This document shows, piece by piece, positions 15,351 through 50,349 of a stretch of DNA of 50,861 bases (position 1 is its first letter; every line of letters begins with the position of its first letter). A program made the translations under genes and the position numbers. The stretch comes from an uncultured Ruminococcus sp. GTDB lineage: Bacteria; Bacillota; Clostridia; Oscillospirales; Acutalibacteraceae. The stretch is from positions 1 through 50,861 of the forward strand of contig CACXFS010000080.1 in the NCBI GenBank assembly GCA_902766885.1, in the 5' to 3' direction. The notes under the pieces were generated by a model. The model saw only the letters and a list, made by a program, of their open reading frames with translations. It was not told the DNA's origin and did no database searches.

Positions 15351-15351
15351 T

Positions 15352-17130: not shown

Positions 17131-17248
17131 CGATATATCAATATATATCAGGGAAACAAGCCTTTCCTAACAACACATACTAATATAATTTCGGAGCGGA
17201 GCGACCATCAATTCCGCATTAAGCAAAAACATAAGGGAGAGAAGAAAA

Positions 17249-18703: not shown

Positions 18704-18722
18704 AATTTGTTAAGTAATACAT

Positions 18723-18766
18723 AAACCGCCCGAACGGTTTTACGCTGTTCGGGCGGTTTGTATTTT
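18723..18766 (+). terminator. Intrinsic terminator of the symporter gene
   Basis: AAACCGCCCGAAC (18723-18735) pairs perfectly with GTTCGGGCGGTTT (18747-18759), loop of 11, followed by GTATTTTT. Confidence 0.93.
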
Positions 18767-18770
18767 TAGG

Positions 18771-18798
18771 TTGCATTTGCAAAATTTGGTGGTATAAT
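18771..18798 (+). promoter_or_regulatory. Promoter of the Crp/Fnr regulator gene
   Basis: TTGCAT (18771-18776), 16 bases, TATAAT (18793-18798), 59 bases before the start codon. Confidence 0.7.
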
Positions 18799-18857
18799 AG
18801 TTATTATAGTTTACAACAGATATTATGAAATACAAATCAGGAGCGCAGTGATTAATT

Positions 18858-19562: not shown

Positions 19563-19574
19563 AGGCGGCAAATT

Positions 19575-20438
19575 ATGGAGTTTCAAAACAAGAAAACAGC
19601 TTTAATTCTTGAGGGCGGCGCACTGAGGAGCTTTTTTACCTGCGGCGTGCTCGACTATTTTATGGAAAAGGACATTTACTTTCCGTGCGTGTGCGGTGTT
19701 TCGGCAGGCTCGCTGTGTGCAATCAGCTATCTTTCAAGGCAAATCGGACGAACGGCTGAGGTGAATCTGAAATTTGTCAACGACAAGCGCTATATGAGCC
19801 TGCACAGCCTGATTAAGGACAAGATGATTTTTAACTTCGATTTCCTTTTCGGCGAAATCAGCCACGACCTTGTCCCGCTTGACTACGACGCATTTTACAA
19901 CAGCACAGAAGAATTCTATGCCTTTGTCACCGACTGCGAGTCGGGCAGGAGCGTCGCCTGCGAAAAGGGAAAATGCAGTGATATTCTGAAGGCTTGCAGA
20001 GCCTCGAGCAGTATGCCTGTTCTGTCAAAAATCGTTGAGCTTGACGGTCACAAGTGCCTCGACGGCGGAACAGCAAACCCGATTCCGTTTGAATGGGCAA
20101 TTGAAAACGGCTATGAAAAAATCGTGCTTGTACTGACAAGGGACATTGATTACCGCAAAAAACCGCTTTCGGGAATGTTAAAGAGGGTTTATGAGAAAAA
20201 ATATTCGGAATATCCCGAGCTTTTAAAGACAATCTACAACATTCCCGACCACTACAACAGCCTTGCAGAGCAGATTGTAAGGCTTGAAAACGAGGGCAGA
20301 TTATTTGTTATCCGCCCCGATGAGCCTGTCAGGGTAAAGCGAACGGAAAAGGACACAAAAAAGCTTGAGGAGCTTTACGCAGTCGGCAGACGTGTTGCGG
20401 AAAACAGAATTGACGATATGATGGAATATTTATTTTAA
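19575..20438 (+). CDS. Patatin-like phospholipase (RssA/YjjU type)
   Basis: The 287-residue product starts behind AAAGGCGG. Patatin motifs are: oxyanion loop LEGGALRSFFTCGVLDYF; nucleophile elbow GVSAGS (S43, G-x-S-x-G); and the catalytic aspartate in LDGGTANPIPFEWA (D163). These are Ser-Asp dyad lipid acyl hydrolases acting on membrane phospholipids or similar esters. No signal peptide is present, so it is probably cytoplasmic or membrane-peripheral. It follows the Crp/Fnr gene closely and may be controlled by it. Confidence 0.93.
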   Translation: MEFQNKKTALILEGGALRSFFTCGVLDYFMEKDIYFPCVCGVSAGSLCAISYLSRQIGRTAEVNLKFVNDKRYMSLHSLIKDKMIFNFDFLFGEISHDLVPLDYDAFYNSTEEFYAFVTDCESGRSVACEKGKCSDILKACRASSSMPVLSKIVELDGHKCLDGGTANPIPFEWAIENGYEKIVLVLTRDIDYRKKPLSGMLKRVYEKKYSEYPELLKTIYNIPDHYNSLAEQIVRLENEGRLFVIRPDEPVRVKRTEKDTKKLEELYAVGRRVAENRIDDMMEYLF

Positions 20439-20830
20439 TTCGGAATGCGGAGTTCGGAATTGAGGTCGAGTGGATAGATTGGAGTAATTTAAAAGTATAG
20501 TGCCCGTATTAATTTATATGCGGCGTTGCCGGTCGAGTGCCTCGACACGCAAATTTTAAATGTTAACTTTTCTTACAGACTTTATTAGTTACACTACATC
20601 ATAATGTAGGGAACGGTCTTGACCGTTCCAATTACCTATAGGTTAGCTGTAAATTTGCGGAACAGTCAAGACTGTTCCCTACACTTTATTACTAAACATT
20701 GCCGATATATCAAAACTGATTCAACTAACAAGCCTATCCAAACAACACGCATTATTACAAATTCGGAGCGTAGCGACCATTAATTCCGAATTACGCATTC
20801 CGAATTACGAATTAAATTATAGTTTAACTT
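20439..20830. repeat. Intergenic mosaic including 80-bp element copy 2
   Basis: The 20439-20888 gap holds ATTCGGAATGCGGAGTTCGG (20439-20459), the GTCGAGTGCCTCGACACGC box (20533-20551), the second copy of the double-hairpin element (20605-20683, same orientation as 5165-5244), a CGGAGCGTAGCGACCATTA box (20763-20781), and a run of CCGAATTACGCATTCCGAAT tracts (~20786-20815). No gene is seen. Confidence 0.85.
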
Positions 20831-20888
20831 ACTAAAGAGGACAACCTGATAAATTATATCGACTTATATAACGGACCAGAAAGGAATT

Positions 20889-21623
20889 ATGAGGATGGGA
20901 AAAAGAACGCTCAAAAAGGCGTTTAAGGACAGTCTGCCTATACTTGCGGGTTATCTTGCCTTGGGCATAGGCTTTGGAGTGCTGCTCCACAGCAAAGGCT
21001 ACAGCTTTCTCTGGGCTTTGCTTATGAGCTGCACAATCTATGCGGGCGCAGGACAGTATGCCGCAGTTGACTTATTAAGCAGCGGTGCGTCGCTTATCAC
21101 AACTGCCGTAATGACGCTGATTATAAACGCACGTCACTTTTTTTACGGCTTTTCACTGCTCGACAAGTACAAAGGTACGGGCAAAGCAAAGCCCTATATG
21201 ATTTTTGCGCTGACGGACGAAACCTACTCGCTTGTCTGCACAGCAAAAATTCCCGAGGGAATTGACGAGAAGAAGTACTACTTATTTCTTTCGGTACTCG
21301 ACCAGCTTTACTGGATTACGGGCTGCACAATCGGCGCACTGCTCGGCACGTTCATTCCGTTTGACAGCACCGGAATTGACTTTGCTATGACTGCGCTGTT
21401 TGTTGTAATCTTCGTTGAACAATGGCTGAGCACAAAGGAGCATTTGCCTGCAATTTTAGGTGCGGCTACAACACTTGTGTGCCTTTTCGTTTTCGGTGCG
21501 CAGTATTTTATCATTCCGTCAATGGCTTTTATCGCAGTTGAGCTTGTAATTTTCAGAAAAAGATTTGAAAAGAGCCAACCCGACAGCGAAAAAACAGATG
21601 CGGAGGTGAGCGAAAATGGATAA
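20889..21623 (+). CDS. azlC: AzlC family branched-chain amino acid exporter, large subunit
   Basis: The 244-residue membrane protein starts behind GAAAGGAATT. AzlC motifs are visible: FKDSLPILAGYLALGIGFGVLL is split by the first helix (~residues 12-33), CTIYAGAGQYAAVDLL, and LIINARHFFYGFSLLDKY. With AzlD it forms an exporter of branched-chain amino acids or analogues (Bacillus AzlCD, 4-azaleucine resistance). The C-terminal tail is charged and cytoplasmic. It overlaps azlD by 8 bases. Confidence 0.94.
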   Translation: MRMGKRTLKKAFKDSLPILAGYLALGIGFGVLLHSKGYSFLWALLMSCTIYAGAGQYAAVDLLSSGASLITTAVMTLIINARHFFYGFSLLDKYKGTGKAKPYMIFALTDETYSLVCTAKIPEGIDEKKYYLFLSVLDQLYWITGCTIGALLGTFIPFDSTGIDFAMTALFVVIFVEQWLSTKEHLPAILGAATTLVCLFVFGAQYFIIPSMAFIAVELVIFRKRFEKSQPDSEKTDAEVSENG

Positions 21624-21948
21624 CAACACCGTTCACTCTCTTTTAATCGTCGCAGTTATGGCTGTATTTACGGCGTTGACACGCTTTCTGCCGTTTCTTG
21701 CGTTTCCCGAGGGACGTAAACGCCCTAAGGTCATTACATATCTCGGCACTGTACTCCCCTATGCCTTAATCGGTATGCTCGTTATCTACTGCTTTAAAAG
21801 TGTTTCAATTTTCGCCTACCCCTACTGCATACCCGAGCTTTTAGCCGTTGTGCTCGTTGCTTTGCTCCACATCTGGAAACGCAACACTCTTATCAGCGTA
21901 TTCGGCGGAGTGATTTTCTATATGGTGCTCGTTCAGTGCGTTTTTTGA
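21616..21948 (+). CDS. azlD: AzlD family branched-chain amino acid exporter, small subunit
   Basis: The 110-residue protein has about four helices and the AzlD pattern (TALTRFLPFLAFPEGRKRPKV with YLGTVLPYALIGMLVIYCFK). The start lies within the end of azlC, behind GGAGGTGAG, so the two subunits are translationally coupled. It is the partner of the preceding gene. Confidence 0.93.
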   Translation: MDNNTVHSLLIVAVMAVFTALTRFLPFLAFPEGRKRPKVITYLGTVLPYALIGMLVIYCFKSVSIFAYPYCIPELLAVVLVALLHIWKRNTLISVFGGVIFYMVLVQCVF

Positions 21949-22043
21949 TTTATTGGAAACTGCTCCGATGCGATCGGGCAAAAAAGATTTGGTAATATCA
22001 ATCTGTCTGACCGATTTGCGTGTCGAGGCTCTCGACTTTTCTG

Positions 22044-22072
22044 TTGACATACTATTAATAGTATGGTATAAT
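22044..22072 (+). promoter_or_regulatory. mntP promoter with a 16-bp palindrome in the spacer
   Basis: TTGACA (22044-22049), 17 bases, TATAAT (22067-22072): full consensus. The spacer region contains a perfect 16-bp palindrome ATACTATTAATAGTAT (22049-22064), an ideal place for a repressor dimer. Together with the riboswitch this suggests two layers of control. Confidence 0.88.
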
Positions 22073-22077
22073 TTCGG

Positions 22078-22199
22078 AAGATTAAGGGAGTAGTCGGCGC
22101 AATATGCGTGATTAAGCCAACATACTTGGGCGTGCCCATGGTTTAATTTTAAATGACAAGACTTATCTGTTTTAAGGCAACAGGTAGGTCTTTTTTTGT
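22078..22199 (+). promoter_or_regulatory. yybP-ykoY family manganese riboswitch with terminator
   Basis: The leader carries hallmarks of the yybP-ykoY aptamer: AAGGGAGTAG near 22085, then CCAACATACTTGG near 22119 and a CCATGG-type segment near 22136. It ends in a terminator: AAGACTTATCTGTT (22158-22171) pairs with AACAGGTAGGTCTT (22179-22192), then seven T. In this class Mn2+ binding prevents termination and turns on exporters such as MntP; the gene downstream is mntP, which supports the call. Confidence 0.92.
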
Positions 22200-22211
22200 C
22201 CTCTGTTGCTT

Positions 22212-22371
22212 ATACTAAACTCTAAATAAAAAACAAAATATCTTTTTGGCATATTTTCCGCCATACTTCGTGAGCTGTCCTCGAAATGCGTCAGCATTTC
22301 TGTGGAATCTCACTCGTCTGACGAAAAATCTGCTCAAAATTCTTATAAAGTTTTTAATCAGAGTTTAGTAT
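22212..22371. mobile_element. Putative 160-bp MITE-like element with 12-bp terminal inverted repeats
   Basis: ATACTAAACTCT (22212-22223) and AGAGTTTAGTAT (22360-22371) are perfect inverted ends bounding 160 bases with no gene. An internal hairpin GAAATGC-gtca-GCATTTC lies at 22283-22300. It sits between the riboswitch terminator and the mntP ribosome binding site, so the mntP mRNA should include it. No clear target-site duplication beyond TA/TAT-like flanks. Confidence 0.6.
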
Positions 22372-22396
22372 TATTAATGCAATGGAGGAATTTTTT

Positions 22397-22960
22397 ATGG
22401 GAATTATTGAGCTTTTCATTCTTGCGGTCGGACTTTCAATGGACGCCTTTGCCGTTTCAATCTGCAAGGGACTGTCGGTGAGAAGTCTTAAAGCACGTCA
22501 CGGCGTAATCTGCGGACTGTATTTCGGAGGATTTCAGGCAGGTATGCCGCTTATCGGATATTTTCTCGGCAAGCAGTTTGAGTCGCTTATCACAAGCGTT
22601 GACCACTGGATAGCGTTTGTACTGCTCGGACTTATCGGTGCAAATATGATTAAGGAGTCATTCGGCAAGCCCGACGAGCTTAACGATTCGTTTGCTCCGA
22701 AGTCGATGATTCCGCTTGCAGTTGCCACAAGCATTGACGCACTTGCAGTCGGCGTTACGTTTGCCTGTCTTGACGTTGAGATTTTCTCGGCAGTCGGCTT
22801 AATCGGCATTACAACGTTTTTGTTTTCGGCAGTCGGCGTGAAAATCGGCAACGTGTTCGGGGTAAGGTTCAAGTCCAAGGCAGAGCTTATCGGCGGAATC
22901 GTGCTTGTTTTGATGGGAGTTAAGATTCTGCTTGAACATTTAGGTGTGATTAATTTTTAG
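22397..22960 (+). CDS. mntP: Manganese efflux pump MntP
   Basis: The product has 187 residues. The ATG at 22397 is preferred because GGAGGA (22384-22389) is the ribosome binding site; an upstream ATG at 22382 overlaps it. MntP signatures are [19 protein letters not shown] and the internal-repeat counterpart [18 protein letters not shown], each with an aspartate in a membrane helix needed for Mn2+ export. Six helices are predicted. Expression is probably induced by manganese through the riboswitch upstream. Length is as usual for the family. Confidence 0.96.
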
Positions 22961-22990
22961 TAAGGTTATCCCTTTTAGTAATTAAACTAT

Positions 22991-23125
22991 AATTTGCGGC
23001 GAATCCGCCGCAGGCAATTCGAGTAGAAAAGTCGGATATTTAGGTAAAAACGGTTGCCCGAATTATGGGTTGATATATAGGTAACGTTTCGGAACGTCAA
23101 GGATGCCGTCCCCTACGGCTATTAA
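22991..23125. repeat. Intergenic palindromic mosaic
   Basis: GCGGCGAATCCGCCGC (22996-23011) is followed by the long module also found at 10192 and inverted at 50-127, then GGAACGTCAAGGATGCCGTC..CCTACGG (~23091-23118). The remaining part of the 22961-23500 gap up to ~23370 shows no gene; the end is promoter and leader of the next gene. Confidence 0.82.
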
Positions 23126-39139: not shown

Positions 39140-39215
39140 GCTGATATAGCTCAGTAGGCAGAGTGCGTCCTTGGTAAGGACGAGGTCACGGGTTCGAATC
39201 CCGTTATCAGCTCCA
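39140..39215 (+). tRNA. tRNA-Thr (anticodon GGT)
   Basis: A 7-bp acceptor stem (GCTGATA / TATCAGC), D arm with AGCTCAGT-GGCAGAG, anticodon stem CGTCC/GGACG with loop TTGGTAA (GGT), T arm ACGGG-TTCGAAT-CCCGT, discriminator T and an encoded CCA. All stems pair. Confidence 0.98.
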
Positions 39216-39259: not shown

Positions 39260-39279
39260 GGAGCATAACGGGATTCGAA
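39260..39279 (-). repeat. Inverted partial copy of the tRNA-Thr 3' end
   Basis: The complement reads TTCGAATCCCGTTATGCTCC. The tRNA (39193-39214) has TTCGAATCCCGTTATCAGCTCC: 15 identical bases, a 2-base gap, then 5 identical bases. It lies 45 bases past the tRNA, in opposite orientation. It may be a relic of recombination at the tRNA, or part of a large hairpin with the tRNA 3' half. Confidence 0.75.
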
Positions 39280-39290: not shown

Positions 39291-39326
39291 AAAACAGTCC
39301 TGTGGACTGTTTTCAGCTTTTTTAGT
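39291..39326 (+). terminator. Terminator-like hairpin
   Basis: AAAACAGTCC (39291-39300) pairs with GGACTGTTTT (39304-39313) around TGT; CAGCTTTTTT follows. With the tRNA terminator upstream, this gap (39216-39546) holds two hairpins, the inverted tRNA fragment and the next promoter, and no gene. Confidence 0.7.
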
Positions 39327-39485
39327 TTTTCTTCATGTTAATTTTTTCATTTAAGGTTTACATAATACTGAAATATGAAAAACAATGTCCGTTTAATGAC
39401 ACATTTGTTATGATATAATCATAGTAAAATATAGTGAAAGGCAATGAAAATACAGGTATTTGTTGTAGAAATTATTCAAAAAATC

Positions 39486-39513
39486 TTGAATTGTGATTAA
39501 AAACTTATATAAT
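39486..39513 (+). promoter_or_regulatory. Promoter of the Z1-peptidase gene
   Basis: TTGAAT (39486-39491), 16 bases, TATAAT (39508-39513), 33 bases before the chosen start. The gene therefore has its own promoter. Confidence 0.75.
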
Positions 39514-39546
39514 GATAATTAGCAAGAATTGATGAGGAGTGAAGCT

Positions 39547-42500
39547 ATGATAACCACAGGAAAATATTACTCGACTCTTACCGGAGACGAAAACGGGAAT
39601 GACAAATACACGGTGGAACTAAAGTCCAGTATAGAAAAAGCAGGTAAGCTTTGTCTTGAAAATATTAACAATAAAACATTTTCCCCGATAATGATGATGG
39701 GAAATATCCAATCGGGTAAGACTAGAGGTTTTATAGGTCTGATGTCTTTGTGCTTTGACAACGGATTTGATGTAACCATCATTCTCACAAAGTGCAGCAC
39801 TGCGCTTGTAAAACAGACGGTTAGCCGTATGATGACGGAATTTGCGGTTTTCAGAACCGGAAATGCGACTGTTGGCGATATTGTAGCACAGGATATTCTT
39901 GACATAGATTTTCGATCCTGTGATACCATGGGACAAAAAGAAGCGGTCATTAAAAAGTTTCTGAAAAACTATAAACGAAAAAAACGAATTATTGTTGTTA
40001 AAAAGCAGGCTGATAATGTTGACAGACTTAACCTGTTTATAGAAGCAATTGTAAAGTATGATTATTATCAAAGATTGTTGATTGTTGACGACGAAGCCGA
40101 TATAACCTCGGTAGGATATGAAAAATCCGGCGTTGAAAACTCTTTGTCACTAAGAAGAATTTCGGGTTCGATTAACACTATGAGAAAATCTTTACACAGT
40201 AATATAGAGCATGTGCTTATGCAGGTTACGGCTACACCTTACGCTCTGTACCTGCAACCGGAGAATTTCTCAAATAATAATATTATGCCAATTAAGCCGT
40301 CAAGAACTGTTGTACTTCCGACAGGCAACGGATATATTGGCGGTGAATATTATTTTATTGATTCTGAAGACGAAGAATCTACAAACTATTGCAAAGCAAA
40401 ATATCTGCCTCATATTGTTCCGCAGGAAGAGATGAGCGTTCTTAACGGCAACAGAAAAAACAGCGGAAAGAATCCGGTTATCACTGACGGCAGAACTGTG
40501 AAAATTGATGAATTCTTAAGCGGAAAAAAGGGCAGGAACTCTTTTGCCTTACCGTCGCTTAGGAACTGGATTTTTGACATTTTGGTCGGCACAGCGATTG
40601 TGCAGCTTACACAAGGCAACGAGGATTTTTATCTATCCGCAGTTCTTCACGCCGCTATAAACAAGCAGCTTCATCACAAACAGAAAGAGTTGATAGAAAG
40701 TTGTTTTGAAGTTCTTGTTTCAACTCTTGAAAAAGATATCAATAATCTAGATTTCAGGGAATTTGTCAAAACATCCTACACCGATATGATAGAATCGGTA
40801 AAGGCTTACGGCACTCTCAGAATACCGACTCTTGATGAGGTCATTAATCGAATTGCTGTTAAGGATGATGACGGGGAACTTGAAGGGCTAATCAACGAGG
40901 TTGACTTTAAAGAAGTAAACAGTGACAACGATATTACTACGTTGCTAAATATTTCTACCGGAGAGTTGAAGCTTGAAAACTCGCTGACAATTTTTGTTGG
41001 CGGACAAGTGCTTGACAGAGGAATTACTATACCGAATATGATAAGCTTCTTTTACGGTCGAGATCCAAAAACCATGCAGCAGGATACTGTTATGCAGCAT
41101 TGCAGGATGTTTGGCTACCGCAATAATTCGCTGTTATCCGTTACTCGCTTATACACTACATACCGCCTTTTCAGTAGCATGAAGGAAATTACAATCCGTG
41201 ATAATCTTTTAAGAGACAGAATGCTGCGTCAGACGAACGGAGAGGTTGTGTATCTTGAGGCAGGAGGAAAAATAAAAGCCTGCTCTCCGCAGAAAATACT
41301 AGCTTCAGAGGTTAATACTATCCTACCGGAAAAGCGTTATCTTCCGGTAGGATTTGATGTTGATAAACAAAACTCTCAAAAAGCGTGGAGCGAAATAGAC
41401 AGAATAATCAGGCAGAATAACGGCTATCTGCCTTCAGAATACTGTTCTTTCTCCGACGGACAAAGTCTTGACGATTTGTATGTTGAGATTTCTTCCGAAG
41501 ATGCGTTTAATATTTTAAAAGCAGCCTATTCTGTAATAATACCAAAAGAAGATGGTAAATGTAATAAGTTCAAGGAAATTGAATCAGTTTTTCTGTTTTC
41601 TTTATCTGAAAGAGAGGGATCCGGAGCTGACGAAATAGCGCTTATAGTCCGGACAGACAGAAAGCTTACCAAAATGAAGAGAAACGGTACTATGTATCAG
41701 GACTCTCCGGATGACGGTAAAAACGAAGGTGCAATCGCTAAAATCCTGCGCTCAAAAATGCCAGTGCTTGTGCTTACGGAACAGACACACCATGAGTGGG
41801 GCAGAAAATTCTGGTGGCCGGTGTATTATACTCCCGACTCAATGAATATTGGCATTTATTCAGAAGCAAGAGTCAGAACTGGAATACTCGAAAATATCAG
41901 CAACGCAAGCATCCTGCCTATGTATATCAGCGAGTATAATGTTATTGATAACATCGGATTAGCTTCTGAAATAACCGAAAAAATGGAAAATGCTGTAGAT
42001 AGGATACTGACTTTCTACGACGACAATTTTAAAGTAAACCGTATTAGTAATACTGTAAACCGCAAGGAATTTAAATGCCCTGTTTATATTGAAAGTTATG
42101 AGAATTTCCCCCAGACTGAAGATTTAGTTCAGTATACTGCCAGGGCTTTACAAAGAATTTCAAACATACTTGGTAAATCGTCAGAGGTGGAAAATATCGT
42201 CAGTCAAATCTCGGATTATTTTGACTCTCTGATTAAAGGCGAAACAAATGATAAAAAAAGAGAATACTTACTCGAGTTAATTGATAGCTTCAACACAACA
42301 AAGGTAAACAAAGAAAGTGTAAAAGGATTAATTAACGAAGCCGAAATGCAGGCTTGCGAATCAAGAGATACATTTGGGCTCTTTACGATTTTCGGTTCTG
42401 GTATCTGCGATATTCATATTAATATCGACGCTATCAGAAAATACTGCAAAGAGAAAGATTATTCCAGTGAATCGATTGAAATATTTATGCAATATGTACT

Positions 42501-42885
42501 ATCTCACGAAATATTCCATTCCATTCACTATGCTGATACAATGACTGAGTCAGGTCGTTGGATTTATACCCGAAAAGACTTTTTTAAACAGCAAGCGGTA
42601 AAAGAAACTCTGGCTGAATACTTTGCTCTATGTTATTCAAAATACGCTATACCTAAAGCAGATGGAGAATTTGACATTGTAGATTGCATCCGTCAAATGA
42701 GAGGAAGAGATACGTTTCCTGATGATGGCGGATATAGCGGAGCTTTGATTATCGAAAAAAGCGATAAGACCACTTTTTACGGAAAAGATAATGATATGTT
42801 TGCTGATGTTTATTCACGTACATTATCGGATATGCCGGACGCATTCTATAAAATAATAAAAGCGGATAACAATACAGGTAAGTAA
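39547..42885 (+). CDS. Z1-family P-loop ATPase fused to a C-terminal HExxH metallopeptidase-like domain
   Basis: The product has 1112 residues. The ATG at 39547 follows GAGGAG (39534-39539). Residues ~45-620 read as a divergent Z1-type ATPase/helicase: Walker A GNIQSGKTRG (52-61), IVDDEADITS (DDEAD at 181-185), QVTATPYALYL (TATP motif), VGGQVLDRGITIP and QHCRMFGYR (motif V/VI equivalents). Z1 proteins occur with restriction and other DNA-targeting systems. A middle part (~620-900) is not recognised. Near the C-terminus, SHEIFHSIHYAD carries HExxH (H987, E988, H991), followed 29-33 residues later by KETLAEYFALCY (E1020/E1024), the pattern of a gluzincin-like zinc peptidase. No signal peptide or membrane helix: cytoplasmic. 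Codon use and base composition look AT-richer than the neighbours. No methylase, nuclease or partner gene is adjacent. Z1 part and HExxH motif are visible; a defence role is inference. Confidence 0.82.
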   Translation: MITTGKYYSTLTGDENGNDKYTVELKSSIEKAGKLCLENINNKTFSPIMMMGNIQSGKTRGFIGLMSLCFDNGFDVTIILTKCSTALVKQTVSRMMTEFAVFRTGNATVGDIVAQDILDIDFRSCDTMGQKEAVIKKFLKNYKRKKRIIVVKKQADNVDRLNLFIEAIVKYDYYQRLLIVDDEADITSVGYEKSGVENSLSLRRISGSINTMRKSLHSNIEHVLMQVTATPYALYLQPENFSNNNIMPIKPSRTVVLPTGNGYIGGEYYFIDSEDEESTNYCKAKYLPHIVPQEEMSVLNGNRKNSGKNPVITDGRTVKIDEFLSGKKGRNSFALPSLRNWIFDILVGTAIVQLTQGNEDFYLSAVLHAAINKQLHHKQKELIESCFEVLVSTLEKDINNLDFREFVKTSYTDMIESVKAYGTLRIPTLDEVINRIAVKDDDGELEGLINEVDFKEVNSDNDITTLLNISTGELKLENSLTIFVGGQVLDRGITIPNMISFFYGRDPKTMQQDTVMQHCRMFGYRNNSLLSVTRLYTTYRLFSSMKEITIRDNLLRDRMLRQTNGEVVYLEAGGKIKACSPQKILASEVNTILPEKRYLPVGFDVDKQNSQKAWSEIDRIIRQNNGYLPSEYCSFSDGQSLDDLYVEISSEDAFNILKAAYSVIIPKEDGKCNKFKEIESVFLFSLSEREGSGADEIALIVRTDRKLTKMKRNGTMYQDSPDDGKNEGAIAKILRSKMPVLVLTEQTHHEWGRKFWWPVYYTPDSMNIGIYSEARVRTGILENISNASILPMYISEYNVIDNIGLASEITEKMENAVDRILTFYDDNFKVNRISNTVNRKEFKCPVYIESYENFPQTEDLVQYTARALQRISNILGKSSEVENIVSQISDYFDSLIKGETNDKKREYLLELIDSFNTTKVNKESVKGLINEAEMQACESRDTFGLFTIFGSGICDIHINIDAIRKYCKEKDYSSESIEIFMQYVLSHEIFHSIHYADTMTESGRWIYTRKDFFKQQAVKETLAEYFALCYSKYAIPKADGEFDIVDCIRQMRGRDTFPDDGGYSGALIIEKSDKTTFYGKDNDMFADVYSRTLSDMPDAFYKIIKADNNTGK

Positions 42886-42992
42886 AGAATGATGTTTGTT
42901 TGATTTCAAGCAAATCAAGGTTACAAAAGCTTGATAATTAGGGATTCCTTAACTTACTTAACACGTCTTAAACATTAGGAAAAAGCTGTTCA

Positions 42993-43021
42993 TTGACACA
43001 CTATTTATAATGTGCTACAGT
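42993..43021 (+). promoter_or_regulatory. Promoter of the TauE/SafE gene
   Basis: TTGACA (42993-42998), 17 bases, TACAGT (43016-43021) with extended -10 TGC. A TATAAT at 43006-43011 exists but has no -35 box at the right spacing. Confidence 0.6.
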
Positions 43022-43045
43022 TTATTTGCATGAATCAAAAAGGGT

Positions 43046-43831
43046 GTGTTTACTATAGAACTTCTTATTAAAATTCTGGTGTGCTTTGTTGCGGGCGCAG
43101 GCGCAGGAATAGGAACGGGATTTGCCGGAATGAGTGCGGCGGCAATCGTCAGCCCCCTGCTTATGACTTTTCTCGGAATTCCTGCCTACACCGCCGTCGG
43201 CGTAGGTCTTGCAAGCGATGTGCTGGCAAGTGCGGTGAGTGCATACACCTACAAAAAGAACAAGAATCTTGACATAAAAAACGGCTTGGTTATGATGGCA
43301 TGTGTGCTTGTGTTTACGCTTGTCGGAAGCTGGGTTTCAAGCCTTTTGCCGAACACGGTTATGGGCAATTTCAGCGTATTTATGACGTTGCTGTTGGGCG
43401 TTAAATTCATAGTAAAGCCTGTTATGACTACCAAAGAAACTATGGAGAGCGTACCGAAGAAAACACGCATAATCAAGTCGGTAATCGGCGGCGTGCTGAT
43501 TGGCTTTATCTGTGGATTTGTCGGTGCAGGCGGCGGAATGATGATGCTTCTGGTACTGACAAGCTTTCTCGGCTACGAGCTTAAAACAGCCGTCGGCACG
43601 AGCGTATTTATTATGACGTTTACGGCGCTTACGGGTGCGGTCAGTCATTTTTCAATCGGGGAAATGCCCGACCTTGCAACGTTGATTCTGTGTATGGTAT
43701 TTACGCTAATCTGGGCGAGAATTGCCGCAGTAATTGCAAACAAGGCTAAACCGAAAACGCTTAACAGAGTTACGGGAATTTTATTGCTGGCAATCAGCGC
43801 AGTAGTACTTGCAGTAAATTATATCTTTTAG
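43046..43831 (+). CDS. TauE/SafE (TSUP) family membrane transporter
   Basis: The 261-residue protein has about eight helices in two repeats. VCFVAGAGAGIGTGFAGM and ICGFVGAGGGMMMLLVLT are the paired TSUP motifs. The family exports or takes up sulfite, sulfoacetate or related organosulfur anions; the substrate is unknown here. No ATG precedes the first helix: the frame opens with GTG at 43046, only two bases after AAAGGG, so the true start may be GTG or a rarer codon a few positions on (ATA at 43055 would be at ideal spacing). Base composition returns to the host pattern. A strong terminator follows. Confidence 0.88.
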   Translation: MFTIELLIKILVCFVAGAGAGIGTGFAGMSAAAIVSPLLMTFLGIPAYTAVGVGLASDVLASAVSAYTYKKNKNLDIKNGLVMMACVLVFTLVGSWVSSLLPNTVMGNFSVFMTLLLGVKFIVKPVMTTKETMESVPKKTRIIKSVIGGVLIGFICGFVGAGGGMMMLLVLTSFLGYELKTAVGTSVFIMTFTALTGAVSHFSIGEMPDLATLILCMVFTLIWARIAAVIANKAKPKTLNRVTGILLLAISAVVLAVNYIF

Positions 43832-43853
43832 AGAAAGATTTGAATGTATTTTT

Positions 43854-43896
43854 AAAGGTTGGGGCATCGTTTTTGACGATGTCCCAACCTTTTTTA
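43854..43896 (+). terminator. Intrinsic terminator of the TSUP gene
   Basis: AAAGGTTGGGGCATCG (43854-43869) pairs with CGATGTCCCAACCTTT (43877-43892) over 16 bp with one wobble; TTTT follows. It is a relative of the stem at 25132. Confidence 0.93.
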
Positions 43897-43903
43897 GTGT
43901 GGA

Positions 43904-43986
43904 GTAGCGGCGAACTGTGTTCGACATAATGTATAAATTGTTTCACAATTTATACATTAGGGACGTGTAGAACCCGTCCCCTACGG
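43904..43986. repeat. Hairpin triplet
   Basis: GTAGCGGCGAAC-tgt-GTTCG, palindrome TGTATAAATTG (43930-43940) / CAATTTATACA (43946-43956), then GGGACGTGTAGAACCCGTC..CCTACGG. It sits between the terminators of two convergent genes. Confidence 0.86.
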
Positions 43987-44051
43987 ATATAGAAAAATCT
44001 ACGACTCACGAGATAACAAACTATAAATCAAAATCTACTTATGTATTGGAT

Positions 44052-44126: not shown

Positions 44127-45545
44127 TTATTTAGCAGCTTTTTTCTTTCTTACGATAAGGAAGAGAACGCCTGCGCAAGCGATGAGTGCTGCACCGCCGA
44201 TTGTGAACATCATTGTGCCCATTCCACCTGTGTTAGGAGTAAGGAGGGGTGTATCGCCAACTTCTACCTGTGTAATTGTTTCACCATTTGCATTTGTAAC
44301 TGTACCGTTATCGGAAATGTTGACTTTGTATACAGTTGAGTTGATATTGTAGCCTGCGGGAGCTGTTGTCTCCTTGAGGTAATATGTACCTGCCTTGATA
44401 CCTGTGAATGTAGCTATACCCTTATCAACATCTTTTCCGTCTACAACCTCTGTACCACTTGTTACCTTCTCTGAACCGTTTGTTGCAACTGAAGTGCAAG
44501 CGAGATCTGTGTAAAGTGTGAAGCCTGCACCGTTGAGCTTTGTAGCTGTGTTGTTTGCATCAACCTTTACTACTGTGAGGTCAAAAGTAAACACCTTAAC
44601 TTCGTTGCCTTCGATTTTTGAAGTCTGGTTATAGCTGTTTGTGTATGAAAGATCAACCTTGTTGGGGTTGCCTGCACCGCCGATTACTGCGTTTGTGTTT
44701 ACTGTAGCTGTGTAAACAGCCTCAACGCTTACATTGCTGTAGAAATCGTCGTTTGCAAGTACTGTAGGATCAATTGTAAGTGTAAAGCTATTGTCTGTTG
44801 TACCTGTCTTTGCGTAGTAAGTTACTGAGCTTGTAATATCTGTTTTAGTACCGTTAGCTTTTACAAGATTTACAGATGTAAGTGCCTTGTATGTAAGACC
44901 TGCGCTCATTGTATCAACGAACTGATAAGACTTTGCTTTTTCAGTTGTTGAACCTACTACTGAACCTGTGAGTGTAAAGCTTACGTCCTTGCCGATAAAC
45001 TCGGAAATTGAGCTTGCAGTTGCGTTGTTTGTGAACTTCTTTGAAACAGTAGGTGTACCGTCTGTAATTTTTTCAGCAGCATTTACTGTTACTTCATTTA
45101 CCCACTCTGAGCCTGTGTAGTAAGGAAGTGCAAATACGCTGTTTGTTACAGAAGTTACGTTTACTCCCTCGGGAGCGCTCTTAACCTTTAAGTAGTAAAC
45201 ACCGTCAGCAAGGTTAGAAATTGTCTTTGTTAAAGCGTCGCCTGTTGCATAAGTGTAATCTGTGCCGCCTGTGAGTGAAAGTGTGTTACAAGCAGTAAGA
45301 AGAGCTGCACTGTCAACACCCTCGGTAGCCTTTGTTGTAAGGATGCTTTCAAGACCTGTTGTGATGTTTTTGTATTCACCTGTTGTTGTGTCTACATCTG
45401 CAACCTTGTAGAGTGTAAATGTGTAGCCTGTCTTACCGTTGAGGGTAAGTGTGTTTGTTTCTGCTGCGCTTGCTGAGAACGGAATCATAAGAGCGATCAT
45501 CATTACAGCGAGAAGAGCAGCGAAAATTTTCTTTGTTGTTTTCAT
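44127..45545 (-). CDS. Sortase-type major pilin with isopeptide-forming domains
   Basis: The 472-residue product has a signal peptide (1-~27, ending FSASAAE). Several Ig-like pilin domains follow, including a Cna-B/SpaA-like one (~335-430) with lysine in FDLTVVKVDANN and the E-box glutamate in TYYLKETTAPAGYN. The C-terminus is a cell-wall sorting signal: TPNTG (a variant of LPxTG), a hydrophobic helix and RKKKAAK. This is the plan of Gram-positive SpaA/FctA-type backbone pilins, which a sortase polymerises and attaches to the wall. The gene is AGGAG-led, 49 bases downstream of the giant adhesin and probably in one operon with it, with a strong terminator behind. No sortase gene is in the window. 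Confidence 0.92.
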   Translation of the reverse strand: MKTTKKIFAALLAVMMIALMIPFSASAAETNTLTLNGKTGYTFTLYKVADVDTTTGEYKNITTGLESILTTKATEGVDSAALLTACNTLSLTGGTDYTYATGDALTKTISNLADGVYYLKVKSAPEGVNVTSVTNSVFALPYYTGSEWVNEVTVNAAEKITDGTPTVSKKFTNNATASSISEFIGKDVSFTLTGSVVGSTTEKAKSYQFVDTMSAGLTYKALTSVNLVKANGTKTDITSSVTYYAKTGTTDNSFTLTIDPTVLANDDFYSNVSVEAVYTATVNTNAVIGGAGNPNKVDLSYTNSYNQTSKIEGNEVKVFTFDLTVVKVDANNTATKLNGAGFTLYTDLACTSVATNGSEKVTSGTEVVDGKDVDKGIATFTGIKAGTYYLKETTAPAGYNINSTVYKVNISDNGTVTNANGETITQVEVGDTPLLTPNTGGMGTMMFTIGGAALIACAGVLFLIVRKKKAAK

Positions 45546-45594
45546 TTGTCATTCTCCTTTAAAAATATAAATATATGTAATTTAATAAGCTGAA

Positions 45595-48500
45595 TTAGTG
45601 GCGAGCCTTGTATCTTGCTCTGCGTTTTTTGCGCTGATTTCTGTCATAAATCTGATAAGTGACAAATAAAAGCGCACCTGTTGCAATAATTCCCAGACCA
45701 ATCAGGAGATATATCGTCATTCCGTTTCCGCTTGCATTCGGCATCAAAAGTAAGCCGTCAACAACATCGTCAAGGGTGATATCATAATCTCCGTCCTTGG
45801 GAAGCGTAAAGAATTGTTTTACATAAGTGGGGTTGTAGCCGTCAGCGGGTGAATACTCAAACAGACAGTACTTCTGATACGTTGTACTTCCGTTTATGTA
45901 ATTCGAGCCGTTAGTCCAAGTACCGCTGTTTGTGTACTGCTCGTTACCGTTTTCAAAGATTACAAGGTTGCTGAATGTGACGGAACCGTCAGCGTTTGTA
46001 ACGGCTTTGGTGATGTTCTTATCAGCCTGAATAATTGAATTGAGCTGATCGGCGCTGATATCGTTCACGCTGCCCGAAACCTTAATCAAACCAAAGGTTG
46101 TGCCTGCAACCTTTGCACCGTCCTGTGCTTTTTTCGCAACAGTAACCGAACCGTGTGTAGTTTTGTTATTAAGCGTCTGAACATTGGTAACAAACGTATT
46201 ATCATTGAAGAACTGAGCATAACCGCTGTCGGAAGTTACATTTGATAATTCGGAGTTTGCAATCTTATAATACTTAGGCGACTGAACTTCTCCGCTTGAA
46301 TTTACTTCAATTTCAACAAGGATTGTTGAAGCGTCCATTGTGTAATCGTTCTTCTGACTTTCACTTATTGAGGAAGCAAAATTCTCTGTGATTTTAAAGC
46401 GGTAATAACCAGGCTCAACAAAGTTAAGAACAGTAGCGTCGTCAAATGTTACAACGCCGTTTGCAGGAGCTGTTTTAGTCTGACTTCTGCCTGCAGTTGA
46501 GAAGGATTTAAGCTTTTCACCTACATTATCAGGGTCATCATACTGTGTAGTCATTTCTGCAAAGCCTGTGATTGTGTAGGTAAACACGCTTCCGTTGTAA
46601 TTATTGCCGTCAAGCTTTTTGTTCACCGAAACTACAGTATTAACGGGCTTTGTAAAATTCGTAGCCGTAACTGCGTTTTCGGATGCATCATCATTGATTG
46701 TGCCTGTAATGTCATCAATCTTGATAAAGCCTGCCGACGCACTCTCTTTGAGTGTATAGGTTGCACCTACGGGTAGTCCGAGAAGGGTGATTGTCTGGCC
46801 TTTCTTTATGGTGAACTTGCCGTCGGATGAAGCACGGTAAACGGTACTGTCGTCATCTACTGTATATTCTACGGGATAAGCCTTAGGTGAATATACCGAA
46901 CCGTCGCCGTCAAGGTCAAGAAGAAGCTGGAATACAAACTGCTTGTCTGTATTGTATTCCGTACCGTCCTCATTCCTTACGTCCTTTGTGAGTGAAAGCG
47001 AACTTGTCTTGATTGTGTTAGTGTAGTTAAGCTGAAGCTGTGCAAAAGAACTGCTGTCGTTCGGGTCAACAAGATTGAACGCAGAGGTTCTGCTGTTTGC
47101 CTCCGATGTGCTGTGGCTGATTGTTCCGCCGAGCTTGTTATCAACAAGCTCCCATGAAGTATCATAGCTTAACGCCGAGTTATCAATCGACTCGCTGACA
47201 ACCATCTGACTTTCGGTTTTGAATGTATTGTTAAAGTCTGCTGTGTCGCTGTCCTTAAGCTTAAAGCTTGAGTTTTCAAGATAAAGGTCTGAGCCATCGT
47301 TTATTGTATATGCCTTGCCCGATGAATCGCCTGAACCGTTCTTATCTTTGATTGAGTAGGTGTATGTTTCGTTTTCCCTGAGGTCATTTGCAATCTCGGA
47401 AATAACATCACCCGTGTCAAGAGTTTTATTTACCTTGAGGTCGTTGTTTGCAGGAGTCATTGTAAACTCTACGCTGAAGTTAGACTCTGCAAGACCACGC
47501 TCCATATAGAAAACTACCATATGATAGGTTGTGTTCGGGTCAAGCTGAACGCCGTTGTTAAAGGTTTTTGTAACTGCACCGAGATTTGTGTTACCCGATG
47601 CGCTGCCTGTATATGCAGAGCCGTCGCCGTTCCATGCTTTTCCGTAATATCCGCTCAAATCAGCAATATAAGCGAGCTTTCCGCCTGTGTTCATATACTT
47701 TTCAAAATCAACAGCTGTGTTGCTTCCAAGCTGTGACTTTTTGAATTTATAGAAACCGTCGGATGTTGCATACGGTTTTACAAAGTAAGCTCCGTCATTT
47801 AATGTACCTACGCTGGTATCCTGCCAAACGTGCAGGCAGAAATCAGCATAAGAGGAGTCTGTCTTAACCCAGATTTCGTCAGACGGTACTGAAATTTCAG
47901 AAGATGATGATGTTGAATAATCCGCATAAACATCATTTGCAGTAGCCGTCATTGTTTTGAAGTTGATGCTGCCCGTTGCTTCCTTATGGTCGCCGCCGAG
48001 GTCGAGCACGAGGTCAGCGTCTGCGCCTGTGGGGTCTGTGCCGATATATACCCAGAGGTCATCGTCTCCGGAGTAGTCAAACTTTACTGCCTCTCCGCCT
48101 ACAGTTCCGTCAACAGTACCGTTTTCGGGAACACGGAAGTCAATGTCAAGGCGAACGCCGAAACCGAAGTCAAGATTATCGTTGCCGCCTCTTGTGTAGG
48201 TCTTTGAACTTGCAGACGTATATGCAGTGCCGTCGGTTTTCCATACTCCGCCGAAAAGATTTGCAATAGTAAGGTTGCCTGTCTGACCGGTCCAGTTTTC
48301 ACCGCTGTTGGGCTTGAAAATGCATTTTGCGTAGCCATCAACATCAGACTTATTAACAACGAAGTAACTTACGCCGTTTACGGTAGTTTTGTTTGAAAGC
48401 GTAATATGCTTGCTTGCCGATGAACCCTCAAACAAATACATATAGTAGTTGGTTGCATTACTCTGAATGTAGAACTGATCCGATGAAACATTCGGCAAAG

Positions 48501-50349
48501 CGTCAGAGTTTTCTTCAATAGTCTGTGATTTCTGAGCGCTGTTGTTATTGAACGGGAAAATACCGTAGCCGTCTGCACTGTTACCAAAAGCCTTAGCGGC
48601 GTCCATTACGCCGTAGGTGCTGCCCGCACCGTAGTTTACATATTTGGGAGTTGTTCCGTCCCATGTAAAGTAAACGTTATCGGTTGCGTTCTTTGAGTTA
48701 AACGAGTAGGTAGTTACTCCCGATGAATTTGTAGATGATCTGAACGGGAATGAGGATTTGAACACCTTTGCTACTCTGCTGTTGCTGTATTGAGCGGCAG
48801 AGAGCGTATCGGTATCAAAGTACGGCATCTTTACGCCGTTTACAACCTGAATATCACCGTCGCTGTCAAGCTTTGAATATGCAAGTCCCTGTATTGACTG
48901 ATTGTAATTGCTCAATCCGTTTGAGTTGTTGACTGCATATCTGTAATCGCCGTCGTAGTAGCGTGTAAGTCCGCTTACTTCACTGCTGTAGCCGTACTGG
49001 TTGCCCTCCTTATAGAGGTTACCGAAGTACAAAGGATAAGCCCAGCCGGAATTTGCGCTTGCAATTGAGCTTATATATTTATTGAAGTCGGTAAACGGGA
49101 ACCACATTCCGTTTCCGTCGGCATATGAGTTTGTTGCGTTATTAAGATAACCGTATGATCTTTCATTGTCGGAAAGATAATCGTAATATGTAGCCTCAAC
49201 ACCGATTATGTTGGACGACTTGGAAAATCTGTCGGTAACGGTTGCATCATAATTAATTTTGTTGATTTCCGAGAACTTGCCCCATATTTCCGTCGTACTT
49301 GTAATCTTGTATGTTGAAGTGTTGTCCGAATAACCTGTTGAGTCACCGTCGGAAAACGTCTTGTAGGACGTAGGTTCGGACGCACCCGTTGTGGTAGAAG
49401 CCTGCGGGTGGAACTTGAGCAATGCGTCCTTGGGAATTTTGCCCTTGAACACGGTTACTCCGTTGTATGTATCCTTTTCAAGCTTTACAACGGCACGGTA
49501 GGGGTCGTTGTAATCATAGGTTGCGTAAACTGAGCTGAGGCTGTTCCAGTTTTCATTGATTACAAAAACAGTTGCAAAGGTTATGTTCTGATTTGCACTC
49601 TGGTCTGCAAGCGTTGAAAGATACTTACTTTCCTGAAAAGTACCGTTGCTCTGAAGATAAATTTCAACCTCGCTGTTTGATGAAGCTGAAGAAATGTCAA
49701 TTGTTTTTACAAACGGATTTGTCCAGCTGCTTCCATTGTAGTAAGAAACATTGTCGCTGTAGCTCTTTTCAATTGAAAGGTCAGCGGTCTGTTTTGATGT
49801 GTTGCCGTTGTCGCTGAAATTCAGAGTTGAATAGCTGCTGTGGATATCGCAGTAATAATATCCGTTTCCGAGCTCCGTCATCTTCGTTCCCGGCCAGGTT
49901 GTGGAACTGTGCGAAGAATCACCGCCGTAATAGTGAACGTACGGCGTTGAGTAAGTCGTACCGTTGACGGGATTTTTAAGCACAATTCTGCGGTAGCCGC
50001 TTGCTACAGCCTTTGTACCCGAAAGCGAAAACGGTGCAGATGATATTTCAATCTGTGTTGCACCCTCGGGAGCTGTCACCTGAAAAACTCCGTTGCTCTT
50101 GGTAACGTTTTCCTTGGAAGACAGAATAGTTCCGTCTGCTTTTGCAAAGCGGACATTCAGGCTTGTCAGGTTTTTCCATGTGCTGTTCTGCGACAGATTA
50201 ATGTCAAACTTCTGACCGGCTGATGTGGCAGCCGATGCACCGATTGAAAATCCGCTCACCAGACATACGGAAATCATCATTGAAAAAGCGAGCACAAGCG
50301 ACAGGCTCTTTCTGAAAAATCTTCCGGTTTTTCTGATTACGCTATACAC
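45595..50349 (-). CDS. Giant pilus-associated adhesin: starch-binding-like segment, fibro-slime and pilin isopeptide domains
   Basis: The 1584-residue product starts with GTG at 50349, behind AAAGGAAGTGAG. A signal peptide (1-~42, ending GASAATS) is followed at ~135-193 by a segment like starch-binding CBM26 modules (VHYYGG..., TTWPGTKMTELGNGYYY, LNFSDNG). A fibro-slime/PA14-like domain lies at ~730-960 (KFDYSGDDDLWVYIG, then VVFYMERGLAESNFSVEF). FctA/streptococcal-type pilin linkage repeats follow, with GYYRFKITEN and GATYTLKESASAG boxes (~1100-1500). The C-terminus has MPNASGNG (not a regular LPxTG), one membrane helix and a very basic tail. It is probably the tip or ancillary adhesin of the pilus built from the next gene. 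The starch link is inference from sequence pattern; the fibro-slime and pilin parts are more certain. Confidence 0.85.
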   Translation of the reverse strand: MYSVIRKTGRFFRKSLSLVLAFSMMISVCLVSGFSIGASAATSAGQKFDINLSQNSTWKNLTSLNVRFAKADGTILSSKENVTKSNGVFQVTAPEGATQIEISSAPFSLSGTKAVASGYRRIVLKNPVNGTTYSTPYVHYYGGDSSHSSTTWPGTKMTELGNGYYYCDIHSSYSTLNFSDNGNTSKQTADLSIEKSYSDNVSYYNGSSWTNPFVKTIDISSASSNSEVEIYLQSNGTFQESKYLSTLADQSANQNITFATVFVINENWNSLSSVYATYDYNDPYRAVVKLEKDTYNGVTVFKGKIPKDALLKFHPQASTTTGASEPTSYKTFSDGDSTGYSDNTSTYKITSTTEIWGKFSEINKINYDATVTDRFSKSSNIIGVEATYYDYLSDNERSYGYLNNATNSYADGNGMWFPFTDFNKYISSIASANSGWAYPLYFGNLYKEGNQYGYSSEVSGLTRYYDGDYRYAVNNSNGLSNYNQSIQGLAYSKLDSDGDIQVVNGVKMPYFDTDTLSAAQYSNSRVAKVFKSSFPFRSSTNSSGVTTYSFNSKNATDNVYFTWDGTTPKYVNYGAGSTYGVMDAAKAFGNSADGYGIFPFNNNSAQKSQTIEENSDALPNVSSDQFYIQSNATNYYMYLFEGSSASKHITLSNKTTVNGVSYFVVNKSDVDGYAKCIFKPNSGENWTGQTGNLTIANLFGGVWKTDGTAYTSASSKTYTRGGNDNLDFGFGVRLDIDFRVPENGTVDGTVGGEAVKFDYSGDDDLWVYIGTDPTGADADLVLDLGGDHKEATGSINFKTMTATANDVYADYSTSSSSEISVPSDEIWVKTDSSYADFCLHVWQDTSVGTLNDGAYFVKPYATSDGFYKFKKSQLGSNTAVDFEKYMNTGGKLAYIADLSGYYGKAWNGDGSAYTGSASGNTNLGAVTKTFNNGVQLDPNTTYHMVVFYMERGLAESNFSVEFTMTPANNDLKVNKTLDTGDVISEIANDLRENETYTYSIKDKNGSGDSSGKAYTINDGSDLYLENSSFKLKDSDTADFNNTFKTESQMVVSESIDNSALSYDTSWELVDNKLGGTISHSTSEANSRTSAFNLVDPNDSSSFAQLQLNYTNTIKTSSLSLTKDVRNEDGTEYNTDKQFVFQLLLDLDGDGSVYSPKAYPVEYTVDDDSTVYRASSDGKFTIKKGQTITLLGLPVGATYTLKESASAGFIKIDDITGTINDDASENAVTATNFTKPVNTVVSVNKKLDGNNYNGSVFTYTITGFAEMTTQYDDPDNVGEKLKSFSTAGRSQTKTAPANGVVTFDDATVLNFVEPGYYRFKITENFASSISESQKNDYTMDASTILVEIEVNSSGEVQSPKYYKIANSELSNVTSDSGYAQFFNDNTFVTNVQTLNNKTTHGSVTVAKKAQDGAKVAGTTFGLIKVSGSVNDISADQLNSIIQADKNITKAVTNADGSVTFSNLVIFENGNEQYTNSGTWTNGSNYINGSTTYQKYCLFEYSPADGYNPTYVKQFFTLPKDGDYDITLDDVVDGLLLMPNASGNGMTIYLLIGLGIIATGALLFVTYQIYDRNQRKKRRARYKARH

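Follow-up and report, generated by a model that had tools for sequence, protein, structure and literature searches.

What does a bacterium gain from a protein that carries a Z1-type ATPase and an HExxH motif in one chain of 1112 residues? The question is raised by a single gene in a 50,861-nucleotide stretch of DNA from an uncultured Ruminococcus sp. (here called the window). Our results suggest an undescribed one-gene type of defence in which DNA sensing may trigger protein cutting. Literature searches returned no description of a Z1 ATPase-HExxH fusion, in agreement with the initial annotation, which knew of no described system with this layout.

An ATPase module and an extra domain in one chain

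The reading frame is uninterrupted from the ATG at 39547 to the stop codon that ends at 42885 (Table 1). The ORF listing begins the same frame at an upstream TTG (39529); the ATG is the likelier start, because the homologues L002, L003 and L004 also begin with MIT. Translation confirmed the length of the protein and every motif position that had been given for it, among them GNIQSGKTRG at residues 52-61 and VGGQVLDRG at 484-492. The chain consists of a DEAD-Z1 ATPase (residues 1-766) and an extra domain of about 345 residues (767-1112), and the same fusion is present in four genomes, those of the window, L002, L003 and L004, the last three being 84%, 59% and 59% identical to the window copy over their full length. 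A fusion artefact or an annotation join is ruled out by the single stop-free frame and the identical layout in these four genomes, whose proteins we refer to as long forms. The other relatives of the ATPase, the short forms, end near residue 775 and are without the HExxH domain. The gene had also been described as solitary with its own promoter; the single-gene layout stands and a promoter is plausible, but the promoter held up less well, as a scan of the region returned 29 promoter-like sites where shuffling predicts 13.3.

Table 1. Features of the locus, in window coordinates
Feature	Position	Strand	Basis or remark
tRNA-Thr(GGT)	39140..39215	+	ARAGORN; just upstream of the gene, flanks variable site
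Possible promoter, TTGAAT-16-TATAAT	39486..39513	+	consensus match 10/12; many chance matches in region
Gene for 1112-residue Z1 ATPase-HExxH protein, stop codon included	39547..42885	+	open frame, Pfam Z1, PADLOC, homologues
DEAD-Z1 ATPase module, residues 1-766	39547..41844	+	Walker A 52-59, DDEAD 181-185, TATP 228-231, GGQVLDRG 485-492, QDTVMQHCRMFGYR 512-525
Linker and mostly helical region, residues 776-930	41872..42336	+	fastest-changing part of protein
HExxH domain, residues 931-1112	42337..42882	+	conserved in homologues; homologous to stand-alone L018
HEIFH motif, residues 987-991	42505..42519	+	predicted catalytic helix; within predicted helix 974-998
ETLAE, residues 1020-1024	42604..42618	+	E1020 invariant; predicted helix 1012-1034

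Judged by sequence comparison, residues 1-766 make up a DEAD-Z1 ATPase that is complete and homologous along its length to the motor of CglI-type restriction systems, and the earlier assignment to the Z1-type ATPases is thus upheld. Pfam Z1 (PF10593) matches residues 338-568 with 85.8 bits (cut-off 25), PADLOC Helicase_II matches the 1112-residue protein with 140 bits (E 1.8e-41), and hhalign (A3 against L032, the Z1 member of a CglI-like plasmid cluster that also has a methylase and a PLD nuclease) gave a probability of 99.9 and an E-value of 5.2e-38 in an alignment spanning residues 23-766. The residues of the ATPase motifs are invariant in 11/11 aligned sequences. Walker A, DEAD-box, Z1 domain and homology along the whole motor, the marks of the CglI N-protein type, are all present.

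According to the available part of one study, the N-proteins of CglI and NgoAVII are DNA-dependent ATPases required for cleavage by their partner (PMC4267653). The window protein shares with them the whole DEAD-Z1-C architecture, Walker A, the DEAD-box and the QDTVMQHCRMFGYR region, and differs in its extra 345-residue HExxH domain and in standing alone: no methylase or PLD nuclease gene was found among the scanned neighbours, so that the adjoining methylase and R-nuclease genes of a CglI-type restriction system are missing there. The window genome (92.6% complete) yielded no cytosine methylase over the cut-off, with one partial match of 20.6 bits, and no HsdS. Since no R-type partner was seen, the protein is without a known DNA-recognition part, which leaves its trigger unexplained. 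Similarity to the MzaC protein of MZA and Z1-AIPR systems is distant (PADLOC 50 bits, NCBIfam 63.9 bits), and membership in MZA was ruled out by the NCBIfam cut-off of 1500 bits and the lack of a partner gene in the seven scanned neighbours. A third group of SFII helicases, linked to MORC restriction operons, is characterized in the accessible text of Iyer et al. 2008 by the motif DThhQXuRhFG (PMC2292703), which fits DTVMQHCRMFG at residues 513-523; unlike in those operons, the scanned neighbours of the window gene include no MORC/GHKL ATPase or nuclease.

The HExxH domain

The presence of an HExxH domain fused to the ATPase, a central claim of the initial annotation, proved real, and the proposed check on homologues came out in its favour. 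HExxH, E1020, E1024, GRW and LSDMP are conserved in 4/4 long forms, window included, while the C-terminal segment of the other long forms is just 36-72% identical to the window copy. A stand-alone relative of the domain with 369 residues (L018) retains HExxH, GRW and E1020. The motif reads HE[IM]FH in the 4/4 long forms and HEFFH in L018; E988 and E1020 are invariant in all five sequences, and E1024 is invariant in the long forms and replaced by R in L018. Identity to L002, L003 and L004 is 42-77% over residues 931-1112 and 28-66% over residues 776-930, a region that is modelled mostly as helices (block pLDDT about 53-93) and is missing from all seven aligned short Z1 relatives. When the protein was shuffled 20,000 times, HExxH arose in 0.93% of the shuffles, and HExxH followed farther on by ExxxD/E in 0.33%. 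Conservation in the four long forms and L018 is stronger evidence for a real motif than these figures, and it rules out a chance HExxH. Comparison with L002 gave dN/dS values of 0.05-0.20 over five segments (about 0.11 for the HExxH segment); by this measure both halves of the protein, HExxH domain included, are under purifying selection.

In the model of the C-terminal domain (pTM 0.83), a pair of strands is followed by two successive helices, the first bearing HEIFH and the second E1020. The metal-site helices of zincins likewise follow a pair of strands. An HExxH kept in homologues and, on the next helix, a glutamate that is also conserved are marks of gluzincin-like zinc metallopeptidases, and both are seen here; alignment and model together make E1020 the likely third metal ligand. 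The structural check that had been proposed for this region thus agreed in the predicted order of strands and helices; Foldseek found no match among solved structures at E <= 0.001. A viral structure library gave nothing at the same threshold, and the two matches from a profile search against solved structures (E 0.28 and 0.58) are not meaningful. Confidence in the full-length model is low (pTM 0.39), and its best fold match, to HsdR of EcoR124I (E 9.3e-3, probability 0.77), was discarded at an rmsd of 23.

No Pfam metallopeptidase family matched the C-terminal parts over its own cut-off. In a scan of those of the window, L003, L004 and L018, Peptidase_M91 (PF14891) matched weakly around the HExxH in the first three, at best with 23.7 bits in L004 (cut-off 25), and did not match L018; the likeness is one of Pfam profile only, and the domain differs here in being fused to an ATPase. 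A SprT-like match appeared in L003 only (E 0.15, 12.3 bits against a cut-off of 25.6). Membership in a named peptidase family is ruled out by these scores.

Distribution and surroundings

The distribution of the gene is patchy and its layout is that of a single gene. Among the sampled sequences the long forms are a single clade (support 100/100), the C-terminal part was found in 2 of 198 relatives, and a Z1 protein of any kind occurs in 6 of 60 members of the genus. At a threshold of E <= 0.01, a search of the class with a C-terminal profile matched 11 of 391 genomes, namely the window genome, G455 (the source of L018) and nine weak matches (E 0.001-0.007); the nine were set aside, and no frame of at least 60 codons at their loci contains HExxH. 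Phylum searches of 398 genomes found no further long form; the genome sets searched are overlapping samples. Three scans of viral contigs likewise held no long form, two being without any relative and one with four short forms. Nothing was found by a motif-pattern scan for further members, or by tblastn of phages and plasmids with the last 220 residues as query.

DNA similarity between the window and L002, its nearest relative, is confined to the gene and stops at its ends. The sister species G030 has the tRNA-Thr, and there 217 bp replace window positions 39318-44051, with no copy of the gene at the site. Upstream, on the opposite strand, lie rimP and nusA; a downstream frame of 261 residues looks by eye like a TauE-like permease. 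The survey of neighbours for defence genes, another of the proposed checks, found them near several short relatives but not among the genes scanned around the window copy and L003: PADLOC reported none among seven of the window neighbours, where the sole weak match was Control_protein (E 0.025), and none among five neighbours of L003, where a sigma factor matches models by virtue of its sigma/HTH part. Of the 8 short forms whose neighbours were scanned, 6 (L005, L006, L013, L031, L035 and L036) have restriction genes or candidate defence genes close by, and the remaining two (L007 and L008) showed none. The surroundings of three long forms differ from each other; L003 has a LysR gene downstream, and a HerA-like gene lies 4 kb from L004. 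The genes around the stand-alone L018 appear ordinary in a listing judged by eye.

Possible functions of the fusion

We consider a single-gene conflict system, probably of defence, in which the Z1 ATPase gates the predicted zinc peptidase, to be the best explanation, with a probability of roughly 45%. It draws on the Z1 match over its cut-off, the CglI-type homology, the conserved HExxH, E1020, GRW and LSDMP, purifying selection, the single clade, the defence genes near short forms, the patchiness, the similarity to L002 that is limited to the gene, and the empty site in the sister species. Against it stand the lack of a defence gene among the scanned window and L003 neighbours (the sigma factor aside), of a metallopeptidase family over its cut-off and of a significant solved fold, the low full-length pTM, the want of a known DNA-recognition part that could account for the trigger, and the seemingly ordinary setting of L018. 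The more specific form, a one-protein immune system whose ATP-driven DNA motor switches the fused putative zinc peptidase and so turns DNA recognition into protein cutting (a "restriction" enzyme with scissors for protein rather than DNA), is possible but doubtful. By analogy with the CglI N-protein, the DEAD-Z1 part would engage, most likely as a dimer, an invader's DNA or a protein-DNA structure that the invader forms; ATP hydrolysis would then move or reshape the protein. The HExxH site could thereby be exposed or positioned, and sequence and predicted helices suggest H987, H991 and E1020 as metal ligands and E988 as the base. We speculate that the peptidase cuts either an essential host protein, as in abortive infection, or one encountered on the DNA.

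The same pairing of a DNA-motor-type ATPase with an HExxH domain would also suit a protease that clears DNA without killing the cell, the Z1 motor travelling along the duplex while the HExxH domain trims bound or stuck proteins, either in crosslink repair like that of SPRTN and Wss1 or by stripping an invader's DNA-bound proteins. Studies of SPRTN and Wss1 reportedly show that DNA-dependent HExxH proteases exist. The likeness lies in the idea, as no sequence relationship emerged beyond the insignificant SprT-like match in L003, and Z1 motors are not known in these proteases; with a distribution unlike that of a housekeeping repair gene, we regard such a role as unlikely. A stress-response regulator, whose ATPase would sense DNA damage or foreign DNA and whose peptidase would cleave a single repressor so that other genes are switched on, has a precedent in IrrE, which is said to cut DdrO and to illustrate that metalloproteases of the HExxH type can serve as switches. 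The gene has no regulator gene paired with it in the window, however, the three long-form surroundings differ (the LysR gene being that of L003), and the end of L002 homology at the gene ends argues against a dedicated local target, which makes this role quite improbable.

The C-terminal domain may also have an activity other than proteolysis. Its nearest solved fold in Foldseek is the metallo-RNase YbeY (7y7o, probability 0.96, TM 0.52 by target; 1oz9 ranks third), as would be expected if it were a metal-dependent hydrolase such as a YbeY-like RNase and the protein a motor-nuclease. The match is not significant, at E 0.3, and YbeY has a motif of three histidines that lacks the glutamate of HExxH, whereas E988 is invariant in 5/5 sequences here. 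The described partners of Z1 proteins do fit a nuclease: in the available part of the CglI study the partner is a PLD nuclease (PMC4267653), and elsewhere PD-(D/E)XK and AIPR proteins are named (PMC9523054). On balance we hold a motor-nuclease to be as improbable as the regulator. If the domain were a zincin that has decayed or serves structure alone, binding a protein or DNA but not cutting it, it would resemble the catalytically inactive caspase and trypsin domains that occupy effector positions in other conflict systems, as reported in the accessible portion of PMC7159879. The residues expected to hold the metal and to act as base are all invariant here while most of the domain drifts, and we judge a loss of activity to be very unlikely.

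If the reading as a conflict system in which the ATPase gates a peptidase is true, a Z1 motor would have been turned to driving a protease inside a single chain, proteolysis would join the outputs of DNA-sensing motors, and the protein would be a compact subject for asking how Z1 domains use ATP. Because a single gene is involved, the wild type and its Walker A and HExxH mutants are directly comparable in a laboratory strain.

Architecture of the Z1-HExxH protein

The initial annotation read a Z1-type ATPase and an HExxH peptidase in one chain, and the translation carries every motif that it listed, each at its assigned residues. The Pfam Z1 model scores 85.8 bits against the window protein (cut-off 25), and the nearest PADLOC models are Helicase_II (140 bits) and then MzaC of the MZA system (50 bits). 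Sequence matching to solved structures returned nothing beyond one insignificant match at E 0.24. We aligned the window protein with ten homologues (L002-L008, L010, L011 and L013, with L009, L012 and L014 omitted for broken frames) and found two classes: four long forms, namely the window protein and those of loci L002, L003 and L004 (84%, 59% and 59% identical to it), and seven short forms ending near its residue 775. Because a profile comparison of this alignment with the Z1 protein of L032, a plasmid cluster in which a cytosine methylase, a PLD nuclease and a Z1 protein are annotated, spans residues 23-766 (probability 99.9, E 5.2e-38), residues 1-766 are, judged by sequence, a complete motor of the type found in the CglI restriction system, and 767-1112 are an addition.

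Invariant in all 11 aligned proteins are G52, Q55-T59, D181-D185 and T228-P231, from Walker A to TATP, and the later motor residues G485-Q487, L489-G492, Q511-H518, R520, F522, G523 and R525. The exact QxDTxxQxxRxFG pattern is not matched in L032 or in five more distant short forms from phage or viral contigs in the tree set. Four short proteins (L013, L033, L035 and L036) have an apparent N-terminal helix-turn-helix extension that the long forms lack; the N-termini of the last three align with the beginning of a type I methylase model, and the L013 extension was judged by eye.

The added domain is absent from all 12 short forms of the tree set; the HEDLH at residue 251 of L035 is unrelated. 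The C-terminal segments of the other long forms are 36-72% identical to the window copy, and all four keep H987, E988, H991, H994, Y995, G1003-W1005, E1020, E1024, DGGYSG (1060-1065) and LSDMP (1093-1097). A class-wide profile search gave one convincing match (E 4.7e-7), a stand-alone protein in L018 that keeps HEFFH, GRW, the E1020 equivalent and LSLRDM, with R at the E1024 position; the HExxH motif is missing from the nine weaker matches. The L018 gene is solitary, among genes that look ordinary. Pfam Peptidase_M91 reached only 7e-5 and 23.7 bits in L004 (cut-off 25), less in L003 and the window protein, and SprT-like gave E 0.15 in L003.

The full-length structural model is poor (mean pLDDT 63.3, pTM 0.39, 11 sequences), and the C-terminal model, built from only four sequences, is better (pLDDT 77.9, pTM 0.83). 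Two strands, an HExxH helix and then a glutamate helix is the order expected for a zincin. Since all Pfam matches of the C-terminal region are below threshold and its model matches no solved structure in Foldseek at E <= 0.001, the most fitting description is a zincin-like HExxH domain from a family without a name.

Features of the window, of comparison loci and of the C-terminal model
Feature	Location	Strand	Remark
tRNA-Thr	39140-39215		precedes the gene
Z1 ATPase-HExxH gene	39547-42885	+	open frame, 1112 residues
Pilin-like protein (SpaA domain, sub-threshold LPXTG-anchor match) and 1584-residue protein (CBM26 starch-binding module, DUF7601)	44127-50349	-	3' of gene and permease
Stand-alone HExxH-GRW protein, 369 residues	L018 1180-2286	-	closest to the fused domain among relatives found; unnamed family
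PDC-M33A/B/C	L005 12306-15791		PADLOC candidate module directly after short-form Z1 gene
Neighbouring strands	residues 944-949, 953-959		predicted
Long helix holding HEIFH	residues 974-998		predicted
Helix holding E1020 and E1024	residues 1012-1034		predicted, after HEIFH helix

Distribution and genomic setting

The four long forms make one clade with support 100/100 in a 17-row tree, consistent with a single fusion event among the sampled sequences; the rooting is unsure, given a long outgroup branch (6.24) and an unusual letter make-up in six rows. The C-terminal segment occurs in two of 198 relatives, G000 and G054, both of one genus, and L002 and G054:C147 are evidently one contig, being equal in length and in match place. 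Six of the 60 genus members encode a Z1 protein of any type, four of them of other kinds (frames of 722-974 codons). DNA similarity between the window and L002 covers 39542-42875, with nothing significant outside, where the L002 flanks are only ~160 and 270 bp.

Beyond the tRNA-Thr, rimP and nusA lie on the strand opposite to the gene; a TauE-like permease, named by eye from its translation, lies downstream. In the sister species G030, whose RimP is 92% identical, 217 bp stand in place of window 39318-44051, the span holding gene and permease. Since the permease itself is found in only 4/60 genus members, it may have moved with the gene or independently of it. Twelve stretches upstream of rimP gave no blastn match inside the gene, some of them being short (L049 0.9 kb, L056 1.2 kb, L055 3.9 kb, L057 5.1 kb). 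The 3' part of the tRNA-Thr, TTCGAATCCCGTTAT (39193-39207), has an exact reverse complement 57 bp on (39265-39279), adjoining a terminator-like hairpin, and G030 has similar copies; these features give the flank the look of a site that varies or is prone to recombination. The pilin-like and CBM26 proteins may act as a pair in surface adhesion or starch binding.

Defence context and proposed role

Restriction or candidate defence genes lie near six of eight scanned short-form loci, which were hand-picked rather than random and do not include L009-L012, L014, L033, L034 or L029 (a repeat of L005). Besides the L005 module, these are a YhcG nuclease (L006), KilA-N (PDC-S22; L013), a cytosine methylase (L031), a type I methylase (L035), and a cytosine methylase, type II endonuclease and Vsr (L036); the single neighbour scanned at each of L007 and L008 is no such gene. 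The adjacency in L005 suggests that Z1 may be part of the PDC-M33 candidate system. Around the long forms, seven scanned neighbours of the window gene gave no defence match with one weak exception, and five in L003 gave in PADLOC only a sigma factor whose sigma/HTH part matches MzaA and mad1. Eight in L004 gave a HerA-like ATPase ~4 kb off and otherwise weak matches; the L002 contig is too short to judge. Downstream of the L004 long form, 14468-23040 (the 1055-aa HerA-like ATPase, an 842-residue protein matching neither Pfam nor PADLOC, and small genes) is possibly an uncharacterised defence cluster, with an LRAT-domain protein in between.

For CglI, Z1 has been proposed to bring about dimerisation of N.CglI, with DEAD making the contact to R (PMC4267653). 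Iyer et al. describe a helicase group bearing DThhQXuRhFG in MORC-linked operons (PMC2292703), and gene-context learning predicted a Z1, PD-(D/E)XK and methylase system (PMC9523054). Among the matches listed from the open-licence PMC literature, none reports a Z1-peptidase fusion or a single-gene Z1 defence, which may nonetheless have been published.

We put the probability at roughly 45% that a DNA state linked to an invader is recognised by the motor half, with DNA dependence extrapolated from CglI, and that ATP cycling in this half gates the peptidase fused to it. The HExxH-domain ligands would hold the metal, and the output would be proteolysis, speculatively of a host or phage protein. 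Of this model we observed the fusion, its conservation, selection and the patchy single-gene pattern. If it serves defence, self/non-self discrimination through HsdS or a cytosine methylase is unlikely, because the window's genome (92.6% complete) has no HsdS and no cytosine methylase above cut-off, only a 20.6-bit partial match.

The same two halves could instead form a DNA-clearing protease, which we regard as unlikely, or a regulatory switch, which seems improbable. Equally improbable is a non-peptidase hydrolase; the best Foldseek match of the C-terminal model, a weak one, is to the metallo-RNase YbeY (probability 0.96, E 0.3). An inactive zincin is more doubtful still.

Between the window gene and L002, dN/dS (NG86) is 0.112 overall, and 0.054 for DEAD, 0.080 for Z1, 0.130 for 601-775, 0.195 for the linker and 0.111 for the HExxH segment; against L003 and L004, dS is saturated save in the L004 HExxH part (dN/dS 0.271, dS 2.1). 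These low values across segments indicate, at the codon level, that function is maintained in both halves and that the linker is the loosest part. The function of the protein is offered as a reasoned guess; the joining of a Z1 ATPase to an HExxH domain is a real and rare architecture, apparently undescribed.
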